IMG/VR virus record: IMGVR_UViG_3300024262_000091
Location: 1-39,836 of that record
Strand: one strand, 5' to 3'
DNA from: a virus
DNA length: 39,836 nucleotides
The notes beneath the pieces are model-generated. The model did not search any database. It was not told the DNA's origin and saw only the letters and a list, made by a program, of their open reading frames with translations. A program made the translations under genes and the position numbers. This document shows positions 3,504-17,027 of this stretch, piece after piece (position 1 is the first letter of the stretch; each line of letters begins with the position of its first letter).

Positions 3504-4142
3504 ATGCCTAAATGTAAAGAATGTGGAGAAAAGTATGAGCAATATGAGTTTAACAACAAGTGGTGCAAAAAGGTAGATTGTCAAACTGCTAAAGCAATGG
3601 ATTATTTAGATAGAAAAAAAAAGAAGCAGAAGCAGAAGCAGAAGCAGGATTGGAAGCAGGAGAAAGAGAAACTTAGACCGTTTACTCACAGTAAAGAAAA
3701 TAAAGCACATTTGCAGTCAGAGATTAATAAGTTGTCCAAGTTAATTGACAAGAAGTTTGAATATGTAACTTGTATTGATTGTGGTAAGTTGTTAGATAAT
3801 ATTGATGCAGGACATTATATTGCAGTAGGAGCAAATGCAACGTTGAGGTATAATTTGAATAATATTCATTCTCAAAATAGAGGGTGCAACAGAAATGAAA
3901 GGCAAGGAAGTAGAAGCACGGGATATTATAAAGGATTGGTAGAAAGATACGGAATGGAGTATGCAGAAATGGTAGATATTGAATTGCAAAATAAGTATAA
4001 GTATTTAGGATTGAAAGAACAAGAAATATACGATAAGTTGAAGGTAGTTAGAAACCTAGTGAAGACGTTTGATACATATAAGTTTGCCAATTCGTTAAAA
4101 GCAAGAGAAATGTTAAATAAGTTAATAGGAATATATGAATGA
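3504..4142 (+). CDS. ninG: NinG/Rap-like recombination nuclease
   Basis: 212 aa. The N-terminus has a zinc knuckle (CKECGEKYEQYEFNNKWCKK), followed by a very basic K/Q repeat region (about 33-55) coded by tandem AAGCAG units. The core VTCIDCGK ... DAGHYIAVGANATLRYN ... NIHSQNRGCNRN carries the Cys/His pattern of the NinG family. Family knowledge: lambda NinG (Rap) is a Holliday-junction/branch nuclease that works with phage recombination. It probably resolves joint molecules made by the ERF annealase and exonuclease at 6586-7879. Confidence 0.9.
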   Translation: MPKCKECGEKYEQYEFNNKWCKKVDCQTAKAMDYLDRKKKKQKQKQKQDWKQEKEKLRPFTHSKENKAHLQSEINKLSKLIDKKFEYVTCIDCGKLLDNIDAGHYIAVGANATLRYNLNNIHSQNRGCNRNERQGSRSTGYYKGLVERYGMEYAEMVDIELQNKYKYLGLKEQEIYDKLKVVRNLVKTFDTYKFANSLKAREMLNKLIGIYE

Positions 4143-6305: not shown

Positions 6306-6596
6306 ATGACAGAAGCAAGATTTAAAAAACAGATTGAAGGAACTAAATTTCAAGAAGACTTAGGAAATGTTCTCAGAGTAAATGAATGTCAAGGGATGTC
6401 AAGGGCAGTATGGAATTTAATACTCTCAAAAAGAGATTGCAATTTATACGCAAAAGGAATCAAGCCTCACAGAATGTGGAAGATTTCAGATGTTAAATGG
6501 TACTTCGGAATAAAAGGAGGAGCGCAAAAGTGTGCTGAACAATTAGAGCAGTATTTAGAAATAGTTACACCAAAAAAAGCAAACAATGAGCAGTAA
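6306..6596 (+). CDS. Hypothetical protein, 96 aa, first gene of recombination operon
   Basis: Follows class I promoter 2. Basic protein with RDCNLYAKGIKPHRMWKISD followed by VKWYFGIKGGAQKCAEQLEQ. Overlaps the ERF gene by 11 bases, so it is translationally coupled to the recombination genes. Family not recognised. Confidence 0.7.
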   Translation: MTEARFKKQIEGTKFQEDLGNVLRVNECQGMSRAVWNLILSKRDCNLYAKGIKPHRMWKISDVKWYFGIKGGAQKCAEQLEQYLEIVTPKKANNEQ

Positions 6597-7242
6597 ATTA
6601 ACAGAAGCAATTCTCCAAGTAATGGGAGAGGTAAAAGGCATAGACAAATCTATGCAAGTTGGAACGGGAGCAATGCAGTATAAAGGAGTCCCCGACCAAG
6701 AGGTAAAAAAGATAATAGGTAGTTCGATGCAAAGACACGGATTAGTTATGTTGCCAATAAAGATAGAGCCAACAACAAGAATTGACAGATGGGAGCAGAC
6801 AGACCAATGGGGAAAGAAGCAAAAGCAATCAGTTTTCACAGAAGTATTGGCGACATACAAGTTAATGCATATAAGTGGAGAGTCGATAGAAATAAGTGGA
6901 TATGGACACGGAACAGATACACAAGATAAGGGAGCAGGGAAAGCAACAACTTATGCTCTAAAGTATGCGTTATTGTATGCATTCCTCGTCCCTACGGGAA
7001 CAATAGATGATAGCGACACTATACACTCAAATGATACAGTTGTCCCTTCTAAGGAAGTTAAAGTACCGATTAACACTAAGGCAAAACTTCCAAAAGAAAG
7101 ATTTGAAAACGCATTGAAGCAGATAGAACTTAATAAGTACGATGGAGATTCAATGAGAGCAACGTTTGAGTTAAGTAAACCGCAAGAGAAAACGTTAAAT
7201 GAATTAGAAACAAAAATGACAGAAGATGAAAAAGAAAAGTAA
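6586..7242 (+). CDS. erf: ERF-family single-strand annealing protein
   Basis: 218 aa. The ERF core runs from about residue 5 to 140: GTGAMQYKGVPDQEVKKIIG, a mid segment FTEVLATYKLMHISGES, then the signature GYGHGTDTQDKGAGKATTYA with LKYALL after it (residues 105-130). ERF proteins anneal complementary single strands during phage recombination and genome circularisation. The next genes encode the exonuclease that makes the single strands and the SSB, so this is a complete annealing module. The C-terminal 70 residues are variable and charged. Confidence 0.93.
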   Translation: MSSKLTEAILQVMGEVKGIDKSMQVGTGAMQYKGVPDQEVKKIIGSSMQRHGLVMLPIKIEPTTRIDRWEQTDQWGKKQKQSVFTEVLATYKLMHISGESIEISGYGHGTDTQDKGAGKATTYALKYALLYAFLVPTGTIDDSDTIHSNDTVVPSKEVKVPINTKAKLPKERFENALKQIELNKYDGDSMRATFELSKPQEKTLNELETKMTEDEKEK

Positions 7243-8930: not shown

Positions 8931-9122
8931 ATGACAAAGAGCAAAGAAATATTCAATCAAGTTAGAGAACAGTACGAAGAATTTGAAAGAAAATTAAAGT
9001 CAGCAAGTGAATGGTCAAGAGAGTATATTGAAAAAGATAAACTAGGTTTTGAGCAAGATTTAATATCCATACAAGAGTGGTGGGAATTTCAAGAATGGAA
9101 AAAAGAAAAACAAAAGAAATGA
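8931..9122 (+). CDS. Hypothetical helical protein, 63 aa
   Basis: A-rich leader ending AAAAAAGAT. One long charged helix with coiled-coil character (SKEIFNQVREQYEEFERKLK), ending in a Trp-rich basic tail (WWEFQEWKKEKQKK). Its TGA overlaps the ATG of the RadC-like gene. Confidence 0.65.
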   Translation: MTKSKEIFNQVREQYEEFERKLKSASEWSREYIEKDKLGFEQDLISIQEWWEFQEWKKEKQKK

Positions 9123-9562
9123 ATTTACCTAAGATAACGATTAAAATAAGCCGTTCTAAAGTACCCGAAGATGAAGTATATACTATCAATTCATCTAGGG
9201 ATGCAAACAAGGTATTTAAGGCAATATTTGATGCAGATACTATTCTGTGGACAGAAGAAAGCGTTATACTCTGCTTAAACAGAAAGAATGACGTAATAGG
9301 TTATCACAAGTTAAGTAGTGGAGGAATGACGGGTACAGTAGTTGATAGTAGAGTGATATTTACGATAGCATTAAAAACGGGAGCTACTTCAATAATTTTG
9401 GCTCACAACCACCCAAGTGGAAATCTGAAACCAAGCGAAGCAGACAAGCGTTTGACAACTAAGATAAAAGAAGCAGGAAGACTGCTAGATATTGATTTGT
9501 TAGACCACTTAATTATAACAGATGAATCGTACTATTCACTTGCGGATAATGATGATATGTAA
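9119..9562 (+). CDS. radC: RadC-like JAB/MPN-domain protein
   Basis: The frame is open from 9077, but ATG 9119 gives the ATGA overlap with the previous gene and removes a lysine-rich read-through segment, so it is preferred (147 aa). The JAB metal-binding motif is clear: E46/E47, H96-N-H98 in LAHNHPSG, and SEAD with D109. The region GTVVDSRVIFTIALKTGATS is the conserved RadC core. RadC-type proteins are common next to phage recombination genes; their biochemical role is unresolved. The N-terminal HhH part of bacterial RadC is absent, as usual for phage and mobile-element versions. Confidence 0.9.
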   Translation: MNLPKITIKISRSKVPEDEVYTINSSRDANKVFKAIFDADTILWTEESVILCLNRKNDVIGYHKLSSGGMTGTVVDSRVIFTIALKTGATSIILAHNHPSGNLKPSEADKRLTTKIKEAGRLLDIDLLDHLIITDESYYSLADNDDM

Positions 9563-11575: not shown

Positions 11576-11632
11576 GGAAGTCCTAGACAATAAATAGGTA
11601 ATAAAATACTTAGATTATTATGTGTATAATCC

Positions 11633-11654
11633 AAATAAAATACTTAGATTTACA
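11633..11654 (+). promoter_or_regulatory. Promoter, class II, upstream of tRNA-like RNA and modification operon
   Basis: AAATAAAATACT followed by TAGATTTACA, two mismatches to 1306-1327. A degenerate extra copy lies at 11599-11620 (TAATAAAATACTTAGATTAT), 34 bases upstream. The -7 box ends about 15 bases before the tRNA-like RNA, so it probably drives that RNA and the operon 11767-16678. Confidence 0.7.
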
Positions 11655-11667
11655 TACAGAACACAAT

Positions 11668-11740
11668 GCGTGTGTAGCATAATTGACAATGTACTACATA
11701 TTCCAATGAGGGAAAGGAGGTGCGAATCCTTCCACACGCT
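11668..11740 (+). tRNA. tRNA-like RNA, probably degenerate or atypical
   Basis: 73 bases with correct tRNA spacing. The acceptor stem GCGTGTG/CACACGC is 7 perfect pairs. A D-arm-like GCAT/ATGT encloses loop AATTGACA (no GG pair). The T arm GGAGG-TGCGAAT-CCTTC pairs fully, with TGCGAAT in place of the usual TTCGAAT. The anticodon arm is irregular: CT-CAT/ATG-AG pairs only with a bulged A and a 6-base loop ATTCCA, so no anticodon can be assigned safely. The discriminator is T and CCA is not encoded. It shares TATTCCAA with the RNA at 5536. Options are a decayed tRNA, or a tRNA mimic with a non-translational role. Confidence 0.5.
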
Positions 11741-11766
11741 CTAATAAACAAACAACAAAACAGAAG

Positions 11767-12189
11767 ATGAAAATTTACACTAGTTATTACGCTCAAATAA
11801 GAAATTTAAAAAAGGAAGGTATTACTCCGATTGCAATTTCTTTAGGCATTCCAAAATTTTTAAGAGGAGAAGATATGTCAAGGATATTCCTATTAGCACC
11901 AAGCAGGGATATGTTAGATTTGTCGTATGATATTTACAAAGAAAGATATATTGAAAGACTTGAAAAAGTTGATTGGAAATTAGTACACGATATGTTATCG
12001 GTTTATGAAGATAAACCCGTTGCTCTGTTATGTTACGAAGCATTAAAAACAGAAGGCGAGTTTTGTCACAGAACGATGTTGGCAGAATACATCAACAAAA
12101 ATTATTCTTACGTTTTTGGACAAGTAACCGAATGGAAAAAAGAAGAAAAAGAAGTTTCACGACAAATAGGAATGTTCGATGATAAGTAG
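11767..12189 (+). CDS. DUF488-family protein
   Basis: 140 aa, first protein gene after the tRNA-like RNA, with an AAACAGAAG leader. It carries the DUF488 marks: IPKFLRG near residue 28, LAPSRDML near 43, and ALLCYE...EFCHRTMLAEYI, with Cys89-Tyr-Glu91 and Cys100-His-Arg102. The biochemical function of DUF488 proteins is not established. Here it opens a gene set with amino-acid and amide-bond enzymes, which hints at a metabolic or modification role. The stop overlaps the next gene by 11 bases. Confidence 0.85.
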   Translation: MKIYTSYYAQIRNLKKEGITPIAISLGIPKFLRGEDMSRIFLLAPSRDMLDLSYDIYKERYIERLEKVDWKLVHDMLSVYEDKPVALLCYEALKTEGEFCHRTMLAEYINKNYSYVFGQVTEWKKEEKEVSRQIGMFDDK

Positions 12190-12610
12190 CAAAGAAAGTA
12201 TGTTAGGAGATTGCCTAAGCACGGGTTGTGGTTGGAAGTGTTGCACGTATGGAGCAGAAGGCATATTGTTATTGCCTAAAGAATACGATAGGATTGAAGA
12301 AGGAAAAGCAGAACATCTTGAAATTGTTAATGATAATTATTTAGGAGGAAAAATAGTTAAGTGTATAGCAAAGAATACGGCAAATTGTGATAAAGGTTAC
12401 AAGCCAATTCAATGTTCAGCATATCCGTTTTGGATAAGAGCAACGGATAACGATACAGATGTAGAAAATAGTCTGAGGTGTCCTATGCCTAAGAAGACAA
12501 TGAGTAAGCATAAAGACAAAGCAGTACAGTTGATTAAAGAATATGCGAAAGGAGTAGATATAGCAGATTTTTTAAAAAAAGCAAAAGTTAAGAATTATGA
12601 AAAGCATTAA
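12179..12610 (+). CDS. YkgJ-like cysteine-cluster protein
   Basis: 143 aa. The N-terminal CLSTGCGWKCC (C12, C17, C21, C22), the later NCDKGYKPIQCSAYPFW and the RCPMPKK motif give the Cys pattern of the YkgJ family, which is predicted to bind zinc or an iron-sulphur centre. The KPIQCxAYPF segment is the family hallmark. It overlaps its neighbours on both sides (11 and 14 bases), so it is a full member of the cassette. It could be a metal-dependent enzyme or an accessory electron or metal carrier for the PLP and amidoligase enzymes (inference). Confidence 0.8.
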   Translation: MISSKESMLGDCLSTGCGWKCCTYGAEGILLLPKEYDRIEEGKAEHLEIVNDNYLGGKIVKCIAKNTANCDKGYKPIQCSAYPFWIRATDNDTDVENSLRCPMPKKTMSKHKDKAVQLIKEYAKGVDIADFLKKAKVKNYEKH

Positions 12611-13064
12611 GCACGAAATACGTCAGTTGTCAATGTTGGATTGGAAGGAAGTTGTAATTCTAGAAAAAGAAGTTGCAAAGTTAGATGTTTCAATAGCAAT
12701 AGAAAGTACAGAAGATGAAATTCATAAATGCTTATTGTCAAATTTAAGTAGTGGAATTTTTGTAGATGGAGAATTAGTTTGTTATGACTTAGCATATTAT
12801 GATGATTATGAATGTATTGCTTATTCTGAAAAGTCTTATACAAAGGAGGAGCATAGAGGTAAGGGATATATGAGAATGACAATACAATGGTTGTTAGATA
12901 ATGCAAAAGAAAGAGATTATGTATTTGCAATTTGTATGGTTTCTCCAACGAATATAGGAAGCACAAAAGTTGTAGAAAGATGTGGGTTTGTAAAAGTAGC
13001 AGAAAGAAATAATGTATATGGTTCTGTAAACAAAAGAGATGTGTTTGTATGCAAATTAACATAG
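12597..13064 (+). CDS. GNAT N-acyltransferase
   Basis: 155 aa. The acyl-CoA-binding motif A is EEHRGKGYMRMTIQWLL with R87-G-K-G90, followed by the motif B region SPTNIGSTKVVERCGFVKVA. Length and order match single-domain GNATs. Probable substrate is an amino acid or amine made in the same pathway. It overlaps the PLP-enzyme gene by 16 bases, implying coupled expression. Confidence 0.88.
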   Translation: MKSIKHEIRQLSMLDWKEVVILEKEVAKLDVSIAIESTEDEIHKCLLSNLSSGIFVDGELVCYDLAYYDDYECIAYSEKSYTKEEHRGKGYMRMTIQWLLDNAKERDYVFAICMVSPTNIGSTKVVERCGFVKVAERNNVYGSVNKRDVFVCKLT

Positions 13065-13927
13065 AGGTAGAAAATATAGTTTCAAACGTTAAAGAAGCAG
13101 AAAATATTTGCCTAGATAGCGGAATAACAGTTGCCGTAATGGTAAAAGATTTTTATTCTAAACTGAGAATACAAGATAGAATTGAAAACAAAATATGGTC
13201 TTCTAAGGGAGTCAAAAATTCGTACAATTATATCTTATTCAAAAATAATATTTGGCGACACAAGGGAGGGTTAGTTACTACAATAGATGAGGTACAGAAA
13301 TTATCTAAAAGTTGCAAAAGATATAAGCGTAAGTTTCAAGGCTTTGTTCCAATAAATATGTTTGATGATAGAGAAGGATTATCAATGTTCAATGCGATAA
13401 GACTAATAAGATTTGCTAAGTATTACGAAAATAAATACTTCACATTAAAAGCAGTTTCGTTTACGAATGGTTGTTTGAAAGATGATTTGTTCTCAGTAGA
13501 TACGTTGCTAAAGTCAATATTGAAACTAAGACTGATTGGAGTAAATTACGTTAGTGTTGGAGGAAGTTACTATTTAGGTAAGTTGTTAAACGACAAACTG
13601 AAAAAAGCAATAGACGAGGTAAGAATAGGAGAATTTGTCTTATATGGAACAATTCCGTTTCACGATAAGAAAGATTATAAAATTGGATTGAATGCGTTAG
13701 ATGTAGATATGGAGATAATTGCCATATATGAAGACAGAAAACAAGCCTTGTTAAAGGGTGGCTCTAGCGACCTTGATACAGATTTGTCAGAATTAGTCAG
13801 TAAGGGTTTTGAGTTTGTTTCAGTTTCAACAGAGTACACGATTGTGAAATATGAAAATAAGCCGTTATTAGGAGATACAGTAAAATTTATACCTAACTAC
13901 CATTCAATGATAAAACTATTAAGATAA
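13049..13927 (+). CDS. Alanine-racemase-like PLP enzyme (fold type III)
   Basis: 292 aa. The N-terminus GITVAVMVKDFYSKL places K33 where alanine racemases carry the PLP lysine (VxKxxxYGHG). VSVGGSY at 168-174 fits a phosphate-binding or barrel strand. VRIGEFVLYG at 191-200 matches the R-x-G-x-x-x-YG motif whose Arg contacts the PLP ring nitrogen. The C-terminal GDTVKFIPNY resembles the end of ornithine/amino-acid racemases. It is shorter than cellular Alr (about 360 aa). It could racemise, epimerise or decarboxylate an amino acid used by the downstream amidoligase. It is rare in a 40-kb phage. Confidence 0.78.
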   Translation: MQINIEVENIVSNVKEAENICLDSGITVAVMVKDFYSKLRIQDRIENKIWSSKGVKNSYNYILFKNNIWRHKGGLVTTIDEVQKLSKSCKRYKRKFQGFVPINMFDDREGLSMFNAIRLIRFAKYYENKYFTLKAVSFTNGCLKDDLFSVDTLLKSILKLRLIGVNYVSVGGSYYLGKLLNDKLKKAIDEVRIGEFVLYGTIPFHDKKDYKIGLNALDVDMEIIAIYEDRKQALLKGGSSDLDTDLSELVSKGFEFVSVSTEYTIVKYENKPLLGDTVKFIPNYHSMIKLLR

Positions 13928-13928
13928 G

Positions 13929-15968
13929 ATGAAGTATAAGGACAACAAGGATAGAACATTCGGTATGGAAATTGAGTTTGCCGATGGAGATAAAGAAAAG
14001 ATTATACTTCCAAAAGGTTATGCGTGGACAGATAATGATTTGACTACAAGAATGATTAATAGTGATGGTAGTGTTGTAACTCACAAAGGAAATAGAGGTG
14101 GAGAAATTAATACTCGACCTTTCACAAGAAGCAAAGAAGATTTAAAAGAAATAGAAAACTTCATAAACCACTTAAAGGACTGTGGAGCAAACGCAATATG
14201 GAATACGGGTTTCGATTGCCATTTGTATGTTAAAGATTTAGGAGTAGAAGGTTTAAAGAAGATGTTTGAATTGTCTTACTATGTTGCACCTTATCTGAAA
14301 AAGATATTTGATATAGCAGAATGGTTTGAGAATAAATATGTTTGCCCTTCTCCAAGTTACGATTACGTAAAAAAAGTAAACAAAGCAGAAACGTTTGAAG
14401 ATATTGTTAAAGCATTCTCAAATGCATCTCACAGAGGTAAAATTAGATTTTGTCCAATTAATCTTTGCCCGATTACTACATTAGGCACAATAGAGTTTAG
14501 ATTGTTTAATACATCTTGGGACTTTAAAGAAAATTTAGAAACCATAAACTTTATGTATAAGTTCGTAGAGTATGCAATGAACCATAGTGTTGATGATTAT
14601 AAAAAACTGAATAGTATTGAGAAGGTAGTAAAGACTTTTGATATTAACGTAGATAGAGTACCGAAAAGAACTAATCCGTTATTGTTTGCAGGAGAAATGA
14701 CAGACTTTACAACAAGTCTAGGAAAACCCGAAAGAAAGAGTGCTAAAGTTCTAACTGAATTTGCTAAATGTGTAAAGGGTAAAAAGATACATTTAGTAAA
14801 TAGTTTTTGGATGGATATTGAACAAGCGTTTAGCAATCAAAAAATAGAAGTTTACATTAAATGCGTATTTACATTTGCTTTATATGAAATAATAAAAATA
14901 GATAGGAAAATAGAGTGGACAAAAGAGTTTGAGTTTTTGAATAAGTATTCTGAAACAAAGCAAGGAAGAATGTCTTCTCTAATTATTTTTGATAAGATGA
15001 AAGGTATGCTATCAAATAGAAAAGATAGAAAAGAATACAATGCAAAAGTATGGAAAAACTATATTAATAGTGTAGAGAAGAAAATGGCAGAGTTAATGCC
15101 TAAGTGTGAAAAGATAATTGAAAGACTAAGTAAAGACAATATAACGTATAAGATAGGAGATGTTAGAGATGCAATTAAAGATTGGAAGAAAGGAGAAGTT
15201 GTAGTTTACCAATGCGAATTTAATAATGATATGAGAGCGTGTAGTAATGCTTTAATCAGATATAGTGATTGCACTTCATTTGATAGATTCCCAACAGATT
15301 ATTATGAACTTGGTATTGAGGAAGTAGATTATGTTGTTTTCTCTAGACACTCAGCACTTGGATTAAAAAAAGTATTGAGAGATTTTAGAGCAATAATGTA
15401 TAGCAATATTGATGAGAAACCTAAGTCTTATATGAACTATAAAAAGCTAAAGACACCAAAGTTTCAAAAATTGCCTATGGAACATCAAATAACGGCAGAG
15501 TCGAAAATGCAATTTATAAGAGCAAACTCACAAGAATTAGACTATCTGAGAATGATGTATTTAAAGAAAGACATTTTATTGGGTAGAGGTAGATTTAATT
15601 TTATTTGGTTTTTGGATGGATATTGTGTTGGAGCAATGATATTTGATTACGCAAAGGGAGCAAAAGCGGCAGGAGATATAATTTGGTTAAAGTCAGATTT
15701 CGTGGTAGATTCAAATGTCCCTAAGTTATCTAAATTGCTAATAATGGCAATGAAGAAAAAAGACTTTCAAAAAGAATTAGAGGTAAGGTACAAATCTACC
15801 ATAGGAATTGTAACAACAAACGTATTTACAGATAAACCCATAAGTATGAAGTATAGAGGTATTTTTAAGTTAGATAAGCGACACAATGGTAAATTAACTT
15901 ACAATACCACTCTAGGAATGTATAAGGACGATAAAGAACTAATTAAGGACTATTTAAGAAGGATATGA
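13929..15968 (+). CDS. Amidoligase fused to a C-terminal GNAT/Mom-like domain
   Basis: 679 aa, starting 1 base after the PLP enzyme. Residues 1-230 are an Amidoligase_2 type COOH-NH2 ligase domain: FGMEIEF (E14, E16), RGGEINTRPF (E59), GFDCHLYV (H98) and GTIEFRLFNTS (E189, R191), the metal- and ATP-binding residues of the glutamine-synthetase-like fold. Residues about 230-500 are helical and unassigned. Residues about 505-679 look like a separate acyltransferase-type domain: FNFIWFLDGYCVGAMIFDYA, WLKSDFVVDS, then PKLSKLLIMAMKKKDF and KPISMKYRGIFKL. This pattern recalls Mom-like phage DNA-modification proteins. It is predicted to form an amide bond and possibly transfer the group. The 4-base ATGA overlap couples it to the ParB-like gene. 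Confidence 0.75.
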   Translation: MKYKDNKDRTFGMEIEFADGDKEKIILPKGYAWTDNDLTTRMINSDGSVVTHKGNRGGEINTRPFTRSKEDLKEIENFINHLKDCGANAIWNTGFDCHLYVKDLGVEGLKKMFELSYYVAPYLKKIFDIAEWFENKYVCPSPSYDYVKKVNKAETFEDIVKAFSNASHRGKIRFCPINLCPITTLGTIEFRLFNTSWDFKENLETINFMYKFVEYAMNHSVDDYKKLNSIEKVVKTFDINVDRVPKRTNPLLFAGEMTDFTTSLGKPERKSAKVLTEFAKCVKGKKIHLVNSFWMDIEQAFSNQKIEVYIKCVFTFALYEIIKIDRKIEWTKEFEFLNKYSETKQGRMSSLIIFDKMKGMLSNRKDRKEYNAKVWKNYINSVEKKMAELMPKCEKIIERLSKDNITYKIGDVRDAIKDWKKGEVVVYQCEFNNDMRACSNALIRYSDCTSFDRFPTDYYELGIEEVDYVVFSRHSALGLKKVLRDFRAIMYSNIDEKPKSYMNYKKLKTPKFQKLPMEHQITAESKMQFIRANSQELDYLRMMYLKKDILLGRGRFNFIWFLDGYCVGAMIFDYAKGAKAAGDIIWLKSDFVVDSNVPKLSKLLIMAMKKKDFQKELEVRYKSTIGIVTTNVFTDKPISMKYRGIFKLDKRHNGKLTYNTTLGMYKDDKELIKDYLRRI

Positions 15969-16678
15969 AGAAAAAAATTGAGATAATACAAGATGTTAAT
16001 ATTGGAGAAATAGAATTAGTAGAAACTAACGCTAATTTTATGACACAAGAAGTCTTCAATCAGTTAGTAGAAAACATAAAAAGAGATGGACAGTTGACAA
16101 GTACAATTTTCTGTATTCCTAAAGTAGAGGGAGAATACGGAAAGTATATTGTGATAAGTGGAAACCATAGACTTCAAGCAGCGAAAATGGCAGGACTATC
16201 AGCAGTACCAATTATGTTAGGACACGAATTGACAGAAGACCAAATACTAGGAATACAGATAAGCCATAATGAATTGCACGGAGAAGACGATGTAGAAGTT
16301 CTAAAACAGTTATTGGATAGAATTAACTCAGTAGATTATAAGACATATACGGGAGTAGATGAAAGTAAATTTGCAGAATTAGATAAGTTTGAATACGATA
16401 TTGTTCAGCCAACAAATGATATTGTTACTATGAACTTTACCTTTGTTGATTCAGATTTGAGTACATTTGAGGAAATAATAGATGAGATAGAGGTAAATGG
16501 AGATATCGAAAATACAGTATTAATGCCGAAAGAAGTGTATGAAAAATTCCAAAAAACGATAAGCAAAGTACAGACTCAATTCAATTTTAAGGCTTATGGA
16601 TTGTCTGTAATCAAAATGATGGAGTTGGCACGTAAACAATTGGATTATGAAAGCAAAGAAAAAGAAGACGTTAACTAA
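15965..16678 (+). CDS. ParB/Srx-like domain protein
   Basis: 237 aa. The N-terminal about 110 residues form a ParB-like domain: TQEVFNQLVENIKRDGQLTS, then YIVISGNHRLQAAKMAGLSA with the GxHR motif (usual GERR), then ISHNELHGEDD. The C-terminal half is acidic and helical and has no clear DNA-binding domain. In phages this domain often sits beside terminase or DNA-modification genes. ParB-fold members bind CTP or act as nucleases or ATPases; which applies here is not visible. It lies between the amidoligase and the small terminase (32-base overlap), linking the cassette to DNA packaging. Confidence 0.85.
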   Translation: MKKKIEIIQDVNIGEIELVETNANFMTQEVFNQLVENIKRDGQLTSTIFCIPKVEGEYGKYIVISGNHRLQAAKMAGLSAVPIMLGHELTEDQILGIQISHNELHGEDDVEVLKQLLDRINSVDYKTYTGVDESKFAELDKFEYDIVQPTNDIVTMNFTFVDSDLSTFEEIIDEIEVNGDIENTVLMPKEVYEKFQKTISKVQTQFNFKAYGLSVIKMMELARKQLDYESKEKEDVN

Positions 16679-17027
16679 AGAGGAGAAAGAGTTAAAAGTC
16701 AAGCAGGAGAGGTTTCTGCAAGTATTTGAGAAGAAGTTATGCAATATCAAGGCTACTTGTTTAGCAGTCCAAATTAGCAGACAGACGTACTATAATTGGA
16801 TGGACAAAGTTGACACCTTTAAAAAAGAGATTGCAGATGTTCAAGAAAGTTTCTTTGACGACCTCGAAACGAAGTTGTACAAGAAAGCAATAATTGATGA
16901 AGATAATACGATGTTGATATTCTTAGCAAAGACGAAAATGAAGCATAGAGGATATACTGAAAGAACAGAGATGGAAGACGTAAGCAAGAGAGAGCCAATA
17001 CAAGTGAACATAGTTAGACCTAAGTAG
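16647..17027 (+). CDS. terS: Terminase small subunit
   Basis: 126 aa. Basic N-terminus, then an HTH segment (NIKATCLAVQISRQTYYNWM) typical of phBC6A51-like small terminases, a helical oligomerisation region (FKKEIADVQESFFDDLETKL) and the tail HRGYTERTE...REPIQVNIV, also common in this family. It recognises the packaging site and recruits the large subunit encoded 2 bases after its stop. It overlaps the ParB-like gene by 32 bases. Confidence 0.88.
   Translation: MKAKKKKTLTKEEKELKVKQERFLQVFEKKLCNIKATCLAVQISRQTYYNWMDKVDTFKKEIADVQESFFDDLETKLYKKAIIDEDNTMLIFLAKTKMKHRGYTERTEMEDVSKREPIQVNIVRPK

Follow-up and report, generated by a model that had tools for sequence, protein, structure and literature searches.

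The window analysed here is the whole 39,836-base virus record IMGVR_UViG_3300024262_000091, and the subject of this work is a compact gene cassette within it that runs into the gene for the terminase small subunit (terS). The core enzyme of the cassette is a 679-residue fusion of an amidoligase, a Dam-methyltransferase fold and a Mom-like GNAT domain, and a tRNA-Gly-like RNA lies at its head. The pairing of such Dam-GNAT enzymes with particular tRNAs is real and is strongly supported by the comparisons described below. The presence of a glycine-type tRNA alongside the core enzyme suggests that charged tRNAs serve phages as a source of amino acids to be joined to DNA, and on balance we think it probable that the cassette is a system for modifying phage DNA that draws on a dedicated charged tRNA.

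The structure of the core protein was predicted using AlphaFold with 17 sequences (mean predicted local distance difference test score, pLDDT, 79; predicted template modelling score, pTM, 0.60), and similar folds were searched for with VIA-align. The sequence-only reading of this DNA had described the protein as an amidoligase plus an acyltransferase-like domain. Both domains are present, but the Dam fold between them had been missed. The amidoligase domain scores 41.5 bits against PF12224 (Amidoligase_2), for which the gathering threshold is 22. Its fold matches are YbdK/GCS2 (1tt4, Z 10.8; 1r8g, Z 10.3), with alignments that extend loosely to residue 460, and glutamine synthetase (8oon, Z 9.6 across residues 7–243). 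The active-site residues E14 and E16 (ExE), E59, H98, E189 and R191 (ExR) are invariant in 17 sequences. The window enzyme thus retains the fold and active site of the Amidoligase_2/GCS2 family, but differs from it in being fused to Dam and Mom-like domains. Motif IV of the Dam fold reads YQCEF in the window (YQxEF) and, in the alignment, NPPTY or FPPF in relatives that have no amidoligase.

For the GNAT domain, phage Mu Mom (8bv8_A) comes first in the VIA list, with Z 10.8 and root-mean-square deviation 3.3 over 137 residues, although its lead is small, other GNAT folds reaching Z 10.0, only 0.8 behind. All 24 aligned members of the family match PF22559 (GNAT-phage-like), the window protein scoring 103 bits against a gathering threshold of 27. 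Profile–profile comparison of 24 GNAT-phage-like domains with nine Mom-family proteins (hhalign) gave a probability of 81% and E 1.3e-5, in the N-terminal half. A PDB sequence search with the GNAT profile gave no match, and so the link to Mom rests on structure and hhalign. The base made by Mu Mom is N6-carbamoylmethyladenine, and the Mom family is PHROG 1384; the window protein has no match to phrog_1384, against which Mu Mom itself scores 7.8e-84. The usual coenzyme A (CoA)-binding motif, R/QxxGxG/A, is absent from the domain as read from the alignment. The window enzyme is therefore like Mu Mom in GNAT fold, in a weak but significant profile match and in its setting of phage DNA modification, but it lies outside the Mom sequence family and carries the added Dam and amidoligase domains. 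An analogy with Mom had been drawn earlier from the sequence, and has gained support from the top structural match and from the Dam fold in the same protein.

Loci are referred to below as AMI if the core protein is of the amidoligase type, ACT if it is of the actinophage type and BRI if it is of the FP_Brigit type, and individual loci carry L-numbers. The RNA at the head of the window cassette scores 39.6 bits against RF00005 (gathering threshold 29) and is the sole Rfam match in the record. ARAGORN returns it as undetermined, with the two-base anticodon 'tc', while a covariance model of the cassette tRNAs gives it 74 bits, the window being in the training set. The anticodon arm is unformed in the minimum free energy fold, which has no 5-bp stem with a 7-nt loop. 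Anticodon arms are mostly irregular in the AMI tRNAs; the arm of the L003 orthologue, a tRNA-Gly(TCC), is standard. The earlier term 'tRNA-like RNA' is thus upheld by Rfam as far as tRNA identity goes. It had been treated as a header element of the cassette, and is probably a dedicated aminoacyl donor. Just 5′ of it is a perfect 17-nt direct repeat, AATAAAATACTTAGATT, at 11600–11616 and 11634–11650 (34 nt apart), a possible promoter or regulator site.

A minimal version of the system lacks the amidoligase. Homologues of this kind occur in Mycobacterium, Gordonia, Faecalibacterium and Microbacterium phages, always with ParB as the next gene, and two further scans yielded 145 additional loci. 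These PF22559/phrog_7858 proteins, from Gordonia, Mycobacterium and Faecalibacterium phages, resemble the window in having a Dam+GNAT core with ParB next to it and, in many cases, a tRNA before it, but are without the amidoligase, pyridoxal phosphate (PLP) enzyme, Cys and DUF488 genes; the profile libraries give them no function. Mycobacterium phage GodPhather has an annotated tRNA-Gly just upstream, and Faecalibacterium phage FP_Brigit a tRNA-Lys. The loci were clustered at 80% identity, and a tRNA was counted if it was on the same strand, within 1 kb upstream and found by strict ARAGORN. An upstream tRNA was present in 17 of 19 BRI clusters and 17 of 42 ACT clusters, rising to 19 and 22 under relaxed ARAGORN, and the covariance model recovers further cassette tRNAs beyond those. 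With one exception the ACT tRNAs are Gly; those of BRI are Lys, Arg or Gly. The cassette tRNA is the only Rfam-level tRNA in about half of 20 records. Upstream of the Dam-GNAT gene in L110 and L115–L117 there are long RNAs resembling tRNA, in which the T arm is clear and an acceptor stem and CCA are present but the 5′ half is abnormal; they may be a further, degenerate form of donor RNA. One Dam-GNAT gene (L151:893) is preceded by a tandem of two tRNA-Gly-like genes and one Trp-like gene under relaxed ARAGORN.

To separate the effect of place from that of enzyme, ParB-Dam methyltransferase genes at the same pre-terminase place were used as a control. Such genes (for example in Streptococcus phage Javan316) likewise combine ParB and a Dam fold just before terS/terL, but carry out methyl transfer from S-adenosylmethionine and have neither a GNAT domain nor a dedicated tRNA isotype. 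An upstream tRNA was found in 8 of 65 control loci, the isotypes being Lys, Met, Val with Arg and Trp, or Ser with Thr, and never Gly. Against this 12% rate the excess of tRNAs has P 5e-14 for BRI and 4e-6 for ACT, and the restriction to Gly (16/17, against 0/8 in the controls) has P 8e-6; these values treat clusters and control loci as independent. The control rate replaced a first null, taken from how often tRNAs occur in other parts of the loci (0.8% per kb window), which was too generous.

A maximum-likelihood tree was made of 84 enzymes, 51 of them with a labelled tRNA, and compared with 500 shuffles of the labels. Isotype changes three times on the tree (15–22 in the shuffles) and twice within BRI (7–12 in the shuffles). 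The Arg enzymes branch as sister to those for Lys, and a single clade inside the Lys group holds the BRI Gly enzymes. The acceptor stems follow a similar pattern. All scorable cassette tRNAs carry C2-G71. At the first pair, every ACT tRNA and every AMI tRNA that was scored has G1-C72, and 27 of 29 BRI tRNAs, whether Lys, Arg or Gly, have C1-G72, while the base at position 73 tracks the charging synthetase for Gly (U) and Lys (A). The first pair follows the enzyme and N73 follows the synthetase, and therefore the acceptor end seems to be fitted to the transferase and the remainder of the molecule to the synthetase. Canonical elbow motifs occur in 11/31 of the ACT tRNA-Gly, a lower proportion than the 15/20 among the other tRNAs at these loci (P 0.009).

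These results bear directly on the alternative that DNA is indeed modified, but that the GNAT domain uses an acyl-CoA or a free metabolite and the tRNA merely aids translation or codon supply. Phages often carry tRNAs, some of the ParB-Dam control loci also have them upstream, and several AMI loci have none. Against it stand a single isotype per enzyme clade, usually as one tRNA, in a setting where the controls have no Gly, an acceptor-stem signature that tracks the enzyme and not the amino acid, and the defective anticodon arms of the amidoligase group. We regard this explanation as unlikely, though it survives better than the other alternatives considered here.

The amidoligase-type cassette is itself conserved. 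Its relatives were found with the 679-residue protein in IMG/VR and in two contigs from metagenome-assembled genomes (MAGs), a Bacteroidetes MAG and a Gastranaerophilales MAG; the scan of genome contigs gave nothing with query A1, and the two MAG contigs with query A11. In about 15 AMI loci, with core proteins 25–47% identical, the order DUF488, PLP enzyme, amidoligase/GNAT and ParB is kept, mostly with terS following, while the Cys and GNAT proteins are separate, fused or too divergent to detect. The terminases are unrelated among loci that share the conserved cassette, the conservation being at 26–47% identity. A lack of such co-occurrence had been named in advance as evidence that would count against the earlier interpretation; co-occurrence is strong, about 15 distinct phages or MAG contigs having nearly identical gene content and order. 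L003 has the six genes in identical order, with its tRNA-Gly(TCC) 12 nt 3′ of DUF488. A tRNA of the same kind adjoins DUF488 in the window, and lies between DUF488 and the Cys/GNAT gene in L003, L005–L009, L012 and L032; in L017 and L033 a tRNA is present on the opposite strand only. In L005 and L008 there is also a tRNA-Phe about 290 nt upstream of the tRNA-Gly-like gene that lies between DUF488 and the Cys-GNAT fusion. A Val tRNA in the L004 record and tRNAs in the L013 record (Met and another) are far from the cassette and were judged unrelated to it.

Some Mom homologues also adjoin a tRNA-Gly and ParB. In Microbacterium phage Antuna, an annotated tRNA-Gly(ccc) sits beside ParB and a Mom homologue (match to Mu Mom at E 3e-8). 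Across 80 related loci with Mom, about 490 kb in total, seven tRNAs were found by strict ARAGORN; all seven are Gly, and all overlap or touch mom or are no more than 40 nt from it. The number of independent pairs is smaller, because several Mom loci are near-duplicates. Relaxed ARAGORN and the covariance model add further tRNAs at Mom loci. A mixed Mom alignment contained no conserved stretch usable for scanning. Mu differs in having no tRNA beside mom, and none was seen nearby at seven other Mom loci that were read, so that a host tRNA-Gly would have to serve in these eight cases. As far as we know, it is not settled which co-substrate Mu Mom uses, although the publication on the Mom structure 8bv8 may name the donor. 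N6-glycyl-adenine and N6-carbamoylmethyl-adenine are isomers, each adding C2H4NO, and so the known Mom base could arise by glycyl transfer followed by intramolecular rearrangement. In L230 and L233 a Mom-like gene lies directly beside a gene annotated as a DNA methyltransferase, a form of the Dam+Mom pairing that is divided between two genes.

DNA is strongly suggested as the target of the cassette. The Dam fold lies between two catalytic domains, and the relatives retain NPPTY or FPPF. ParB is a constant partner and is fused elsewhere to DNA methyltransferases; the window ParB-like protein matches phrog_498, a ParB–methyltransferase family, at 1e-13. Mom, a proven DNA modifier, likewise neighbours tRNA-Gly. 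It had been proposed from the sequence that the cassette targets DNA before packaging, a proposal now strengthened by the Dam fold, the Mom-like GNAT domain and the ParB partner upstream of terminase. These same features make it improbable that a protein, peptide or small molecule is glycylated or amidated instead (a peptide tag, or an envelope or virion protein), even though amidoligases and PLP racemase-fold enzymes work in peptide and cell-wall chemistry and motif IV of the window Dam domain is degenerate. Over its full length the ParB-like protein is also weakly similar to SerK, an ADP-dependent serine kinase, and to SbnI (E 1e-3). A role as a free serine kinase is not preferred, although from this similarity the ParB-like partners could be kinases instead of DNA clamps.

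It is very unlikely that cassette and tRNA travel together solely as cargo gathered at a hot spot near the terminase genes: this would fit the upstream tRNAs of the eight control loci, but does not predict isotype restriction, congruence with the tree or the acceptor signature. Least probable of all is that the GNAT shuts down host translation by acetylating the aminoacyl-tRNA (Gly, Lys, Arg) of the host, the phage tRNA being a resistant replacement, since this matches the acetylation of Gly-tRNA by TacT-type GNAT toxins and the co-evolution of isotype with enzyme, but leaves the Dam fold, the ParB partner, the terminase-proximal place and the link to Mom unexplained, and many of the phage tRNAs look incapable of normal decoding.

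Several observations weigh against tRNA-fed DNA modification. The window Dam domain is without the NPPY-type motif that its relatives retain, and no DPPY-type motif IV was found in it. No cassette tRNA could be detected in about half of the AMI loci (L004/L191, L013, L014–L016, L018 and L192), and so the tRNA can be dispensable or supplied by the host. The place before ParB and terminase is itself somewhat rich in tRNAs, as the control rate indicates. The tRNA-Lys and tRNA-Arg of BRI look mostly normal and could decode, and a small number of additional Met, Ser and Phe tRNAs close to certain loci were left out of the isotype labels.

In the mechanism that we propose for tRNA-fed modification, the host glycyl-tRNA synthetase would charge the phage tRNA, which its odd anticodon arm and elbow would keep off the ribosome. 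The Dam-fold domain would present an exocyclic base amine to the GNAT domain, which would move onto it glycine from Gly-tRNA and not an acyl group from CoA, and ParB would assist loading onto DNA just before packaging. In the window version, the amidoligase, the PLP enzyme and the second, stand-alone GNAT probably elaborate the glycyl adduct: the fused amidoligase would form a further, ATP-driven amide bond, and the unit added would be an amino acid or amine shaped by the other two enzymes. It is plausible, as had been proposed from the sequence, that these two make the amino acid that the amidoligase couples. The scheme gives no step to DUF488 or to the Cys protein. The outcome would be hypermodified virion DNA that resists restriction. 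The wider proposal, namely that such GNATs attach Gly, Lys or Arg to DNA bases from dedicated aminoacyl-tRNAs that the phages encode, that Gly-tRNA is also the donor for Mu Mom, and that the window amidoligase extends the adduct, is in our judgement evenly balanced between right and wrong.

FemX and L/F-transferase are proposed as parallels, as they have a GNAT-type fold and a charged-tRNA donor; here the proposal of such a donor is based on genomic pairing. They modify peptidoglycan or proteins and not DNA, and no sequence relation to them is shown. FemX reads the 2-71 pair of the tRNA, and the non-proteinogenic tRNA-Gly species of S. aureus lack G18G19 (PMC4052509), which compares with the conserved C2-G71 and altered D loops of the cassette tRNAs. 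No account of DNA modification that depends on tRNA came up in the literature searches, which extended to no preprints and to only a small share of subscription papers. If the proposal is correct, tRNA also serves to donate amino acids to DNA, which links the translation machinery to genome modification, and there is a testable candidate for the co-substrate of Mu Mom. It would also give a function to the PF22559/phrog_7858 family, found in many phages, account for the lone tRNA that some phages carry, and predict positively charged Lys- or Arg-DNA in some of them.

The features of the cassette are listed in Table 1. The six open reading frames are as tightly packed as had been described, with successive overlaps of 11, 14 and 16 nt, a 1-nt gap and a 4-nt overlap, and the cassette does run into terS, which the sixth frame overlaps by 32 nt.

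Table 1. Features of the window cassette, with the basis of each assignment.
Feature	Position	Strand	Basis
tRNA-Gly-like RNA, UUCC in irregular anticodon arm; G1-C72, C2-G71, U73	11668..11741	+	Rfam RF00005
DUF488 protein	11767..12189	+	PF22751 1.2e-5, just under cut-off; kept in AMI loci
Cys-rich protein, motif GCGWxCC...CD.GYKP.QC..YP	12179..12610	+	Alignment; fusion sizes
Stand-alone GNAT acetyltransferase-like protein	12597..13064	+	PF00583 5.4e-7; phrog_1249
Fold-type-III PLP enzyme (D-threonine aldolase / D-serine dehydratase / alanine racemase group)	13049..13927	+	Model, conserved residues
Amidoligase–Dam-fold–Mom-like GNAT fusion, 679 aa, core enzyme	13929..15968	+	PF12224 1.8e-10, PF22555 weak, PF22559 1.8e-29
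Amidoligase domain, aa 6–~250, GCS2/glutamine-synthetase-like	13944..14678	+	Fold search, invariant residues
Dam-methyltransferase fold, aa 266–495	14724..15413	+	E. coli Dam 2ore Z 10.0; T4 Dam 1yf3 Z 9.6
Mom-like GNAT domain, aa 521–664	15489..15920	+	Top VIA match Mu Mom 8bv8
ParB-like protein, phrog_7405	15965..16678	+	ParB_N 5.4e-6; phrog_7405 6e-54; phrog_498 1e-13
Terminase small subunit terS	16647..17027	+	phrog_4044

The assignments of the stand-alone GNAT, amidoligase, GNAT-phage-like (PF22559) and ParB_N domains all exceed the Pfam cut-off, in the case of ParB by a small amount (PF02195, 26.8 bits against a gathering threshold of 26.3). The DUF488 label falls just short, at 26 bits against 27. 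The second protein had been called YkgJ-like: it is a conserved Cys protein, but its best Pfam match is DUF3109 (E 0.0044) and not YkgJ. It probably binds metal, and in L005–L009 it is fused with the GNAT that follows.

The label of 'Alr-like PLP enzyme' has weak support in sequence, but the structure model (pLDDT 89.5) is clearly of fold-type III, with Z about 20 across 282 residues. The VIA matches are beta-hydroxyaspartate aldolase (Z 20.7), D-Ser dehydratase (20.5), D-Thr aldolase (20.3) and Ala racemase (20.0). Aldolase and racemase roles cannot be separated, because these ranks are tied within 1 Z. The PLP lysine, K33, is invariant, and the motifs SxGGS and RxGE are conserved. Aldolases within this group use or release glycine, a chemistry that fits a glycine-based system, without proving anything. 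Elsewhere in the window, the early region encodes a RadC-like JAB protein (9077–9562) and the recombination proteins NinG (3504–4142) and ERF (6586–7242).

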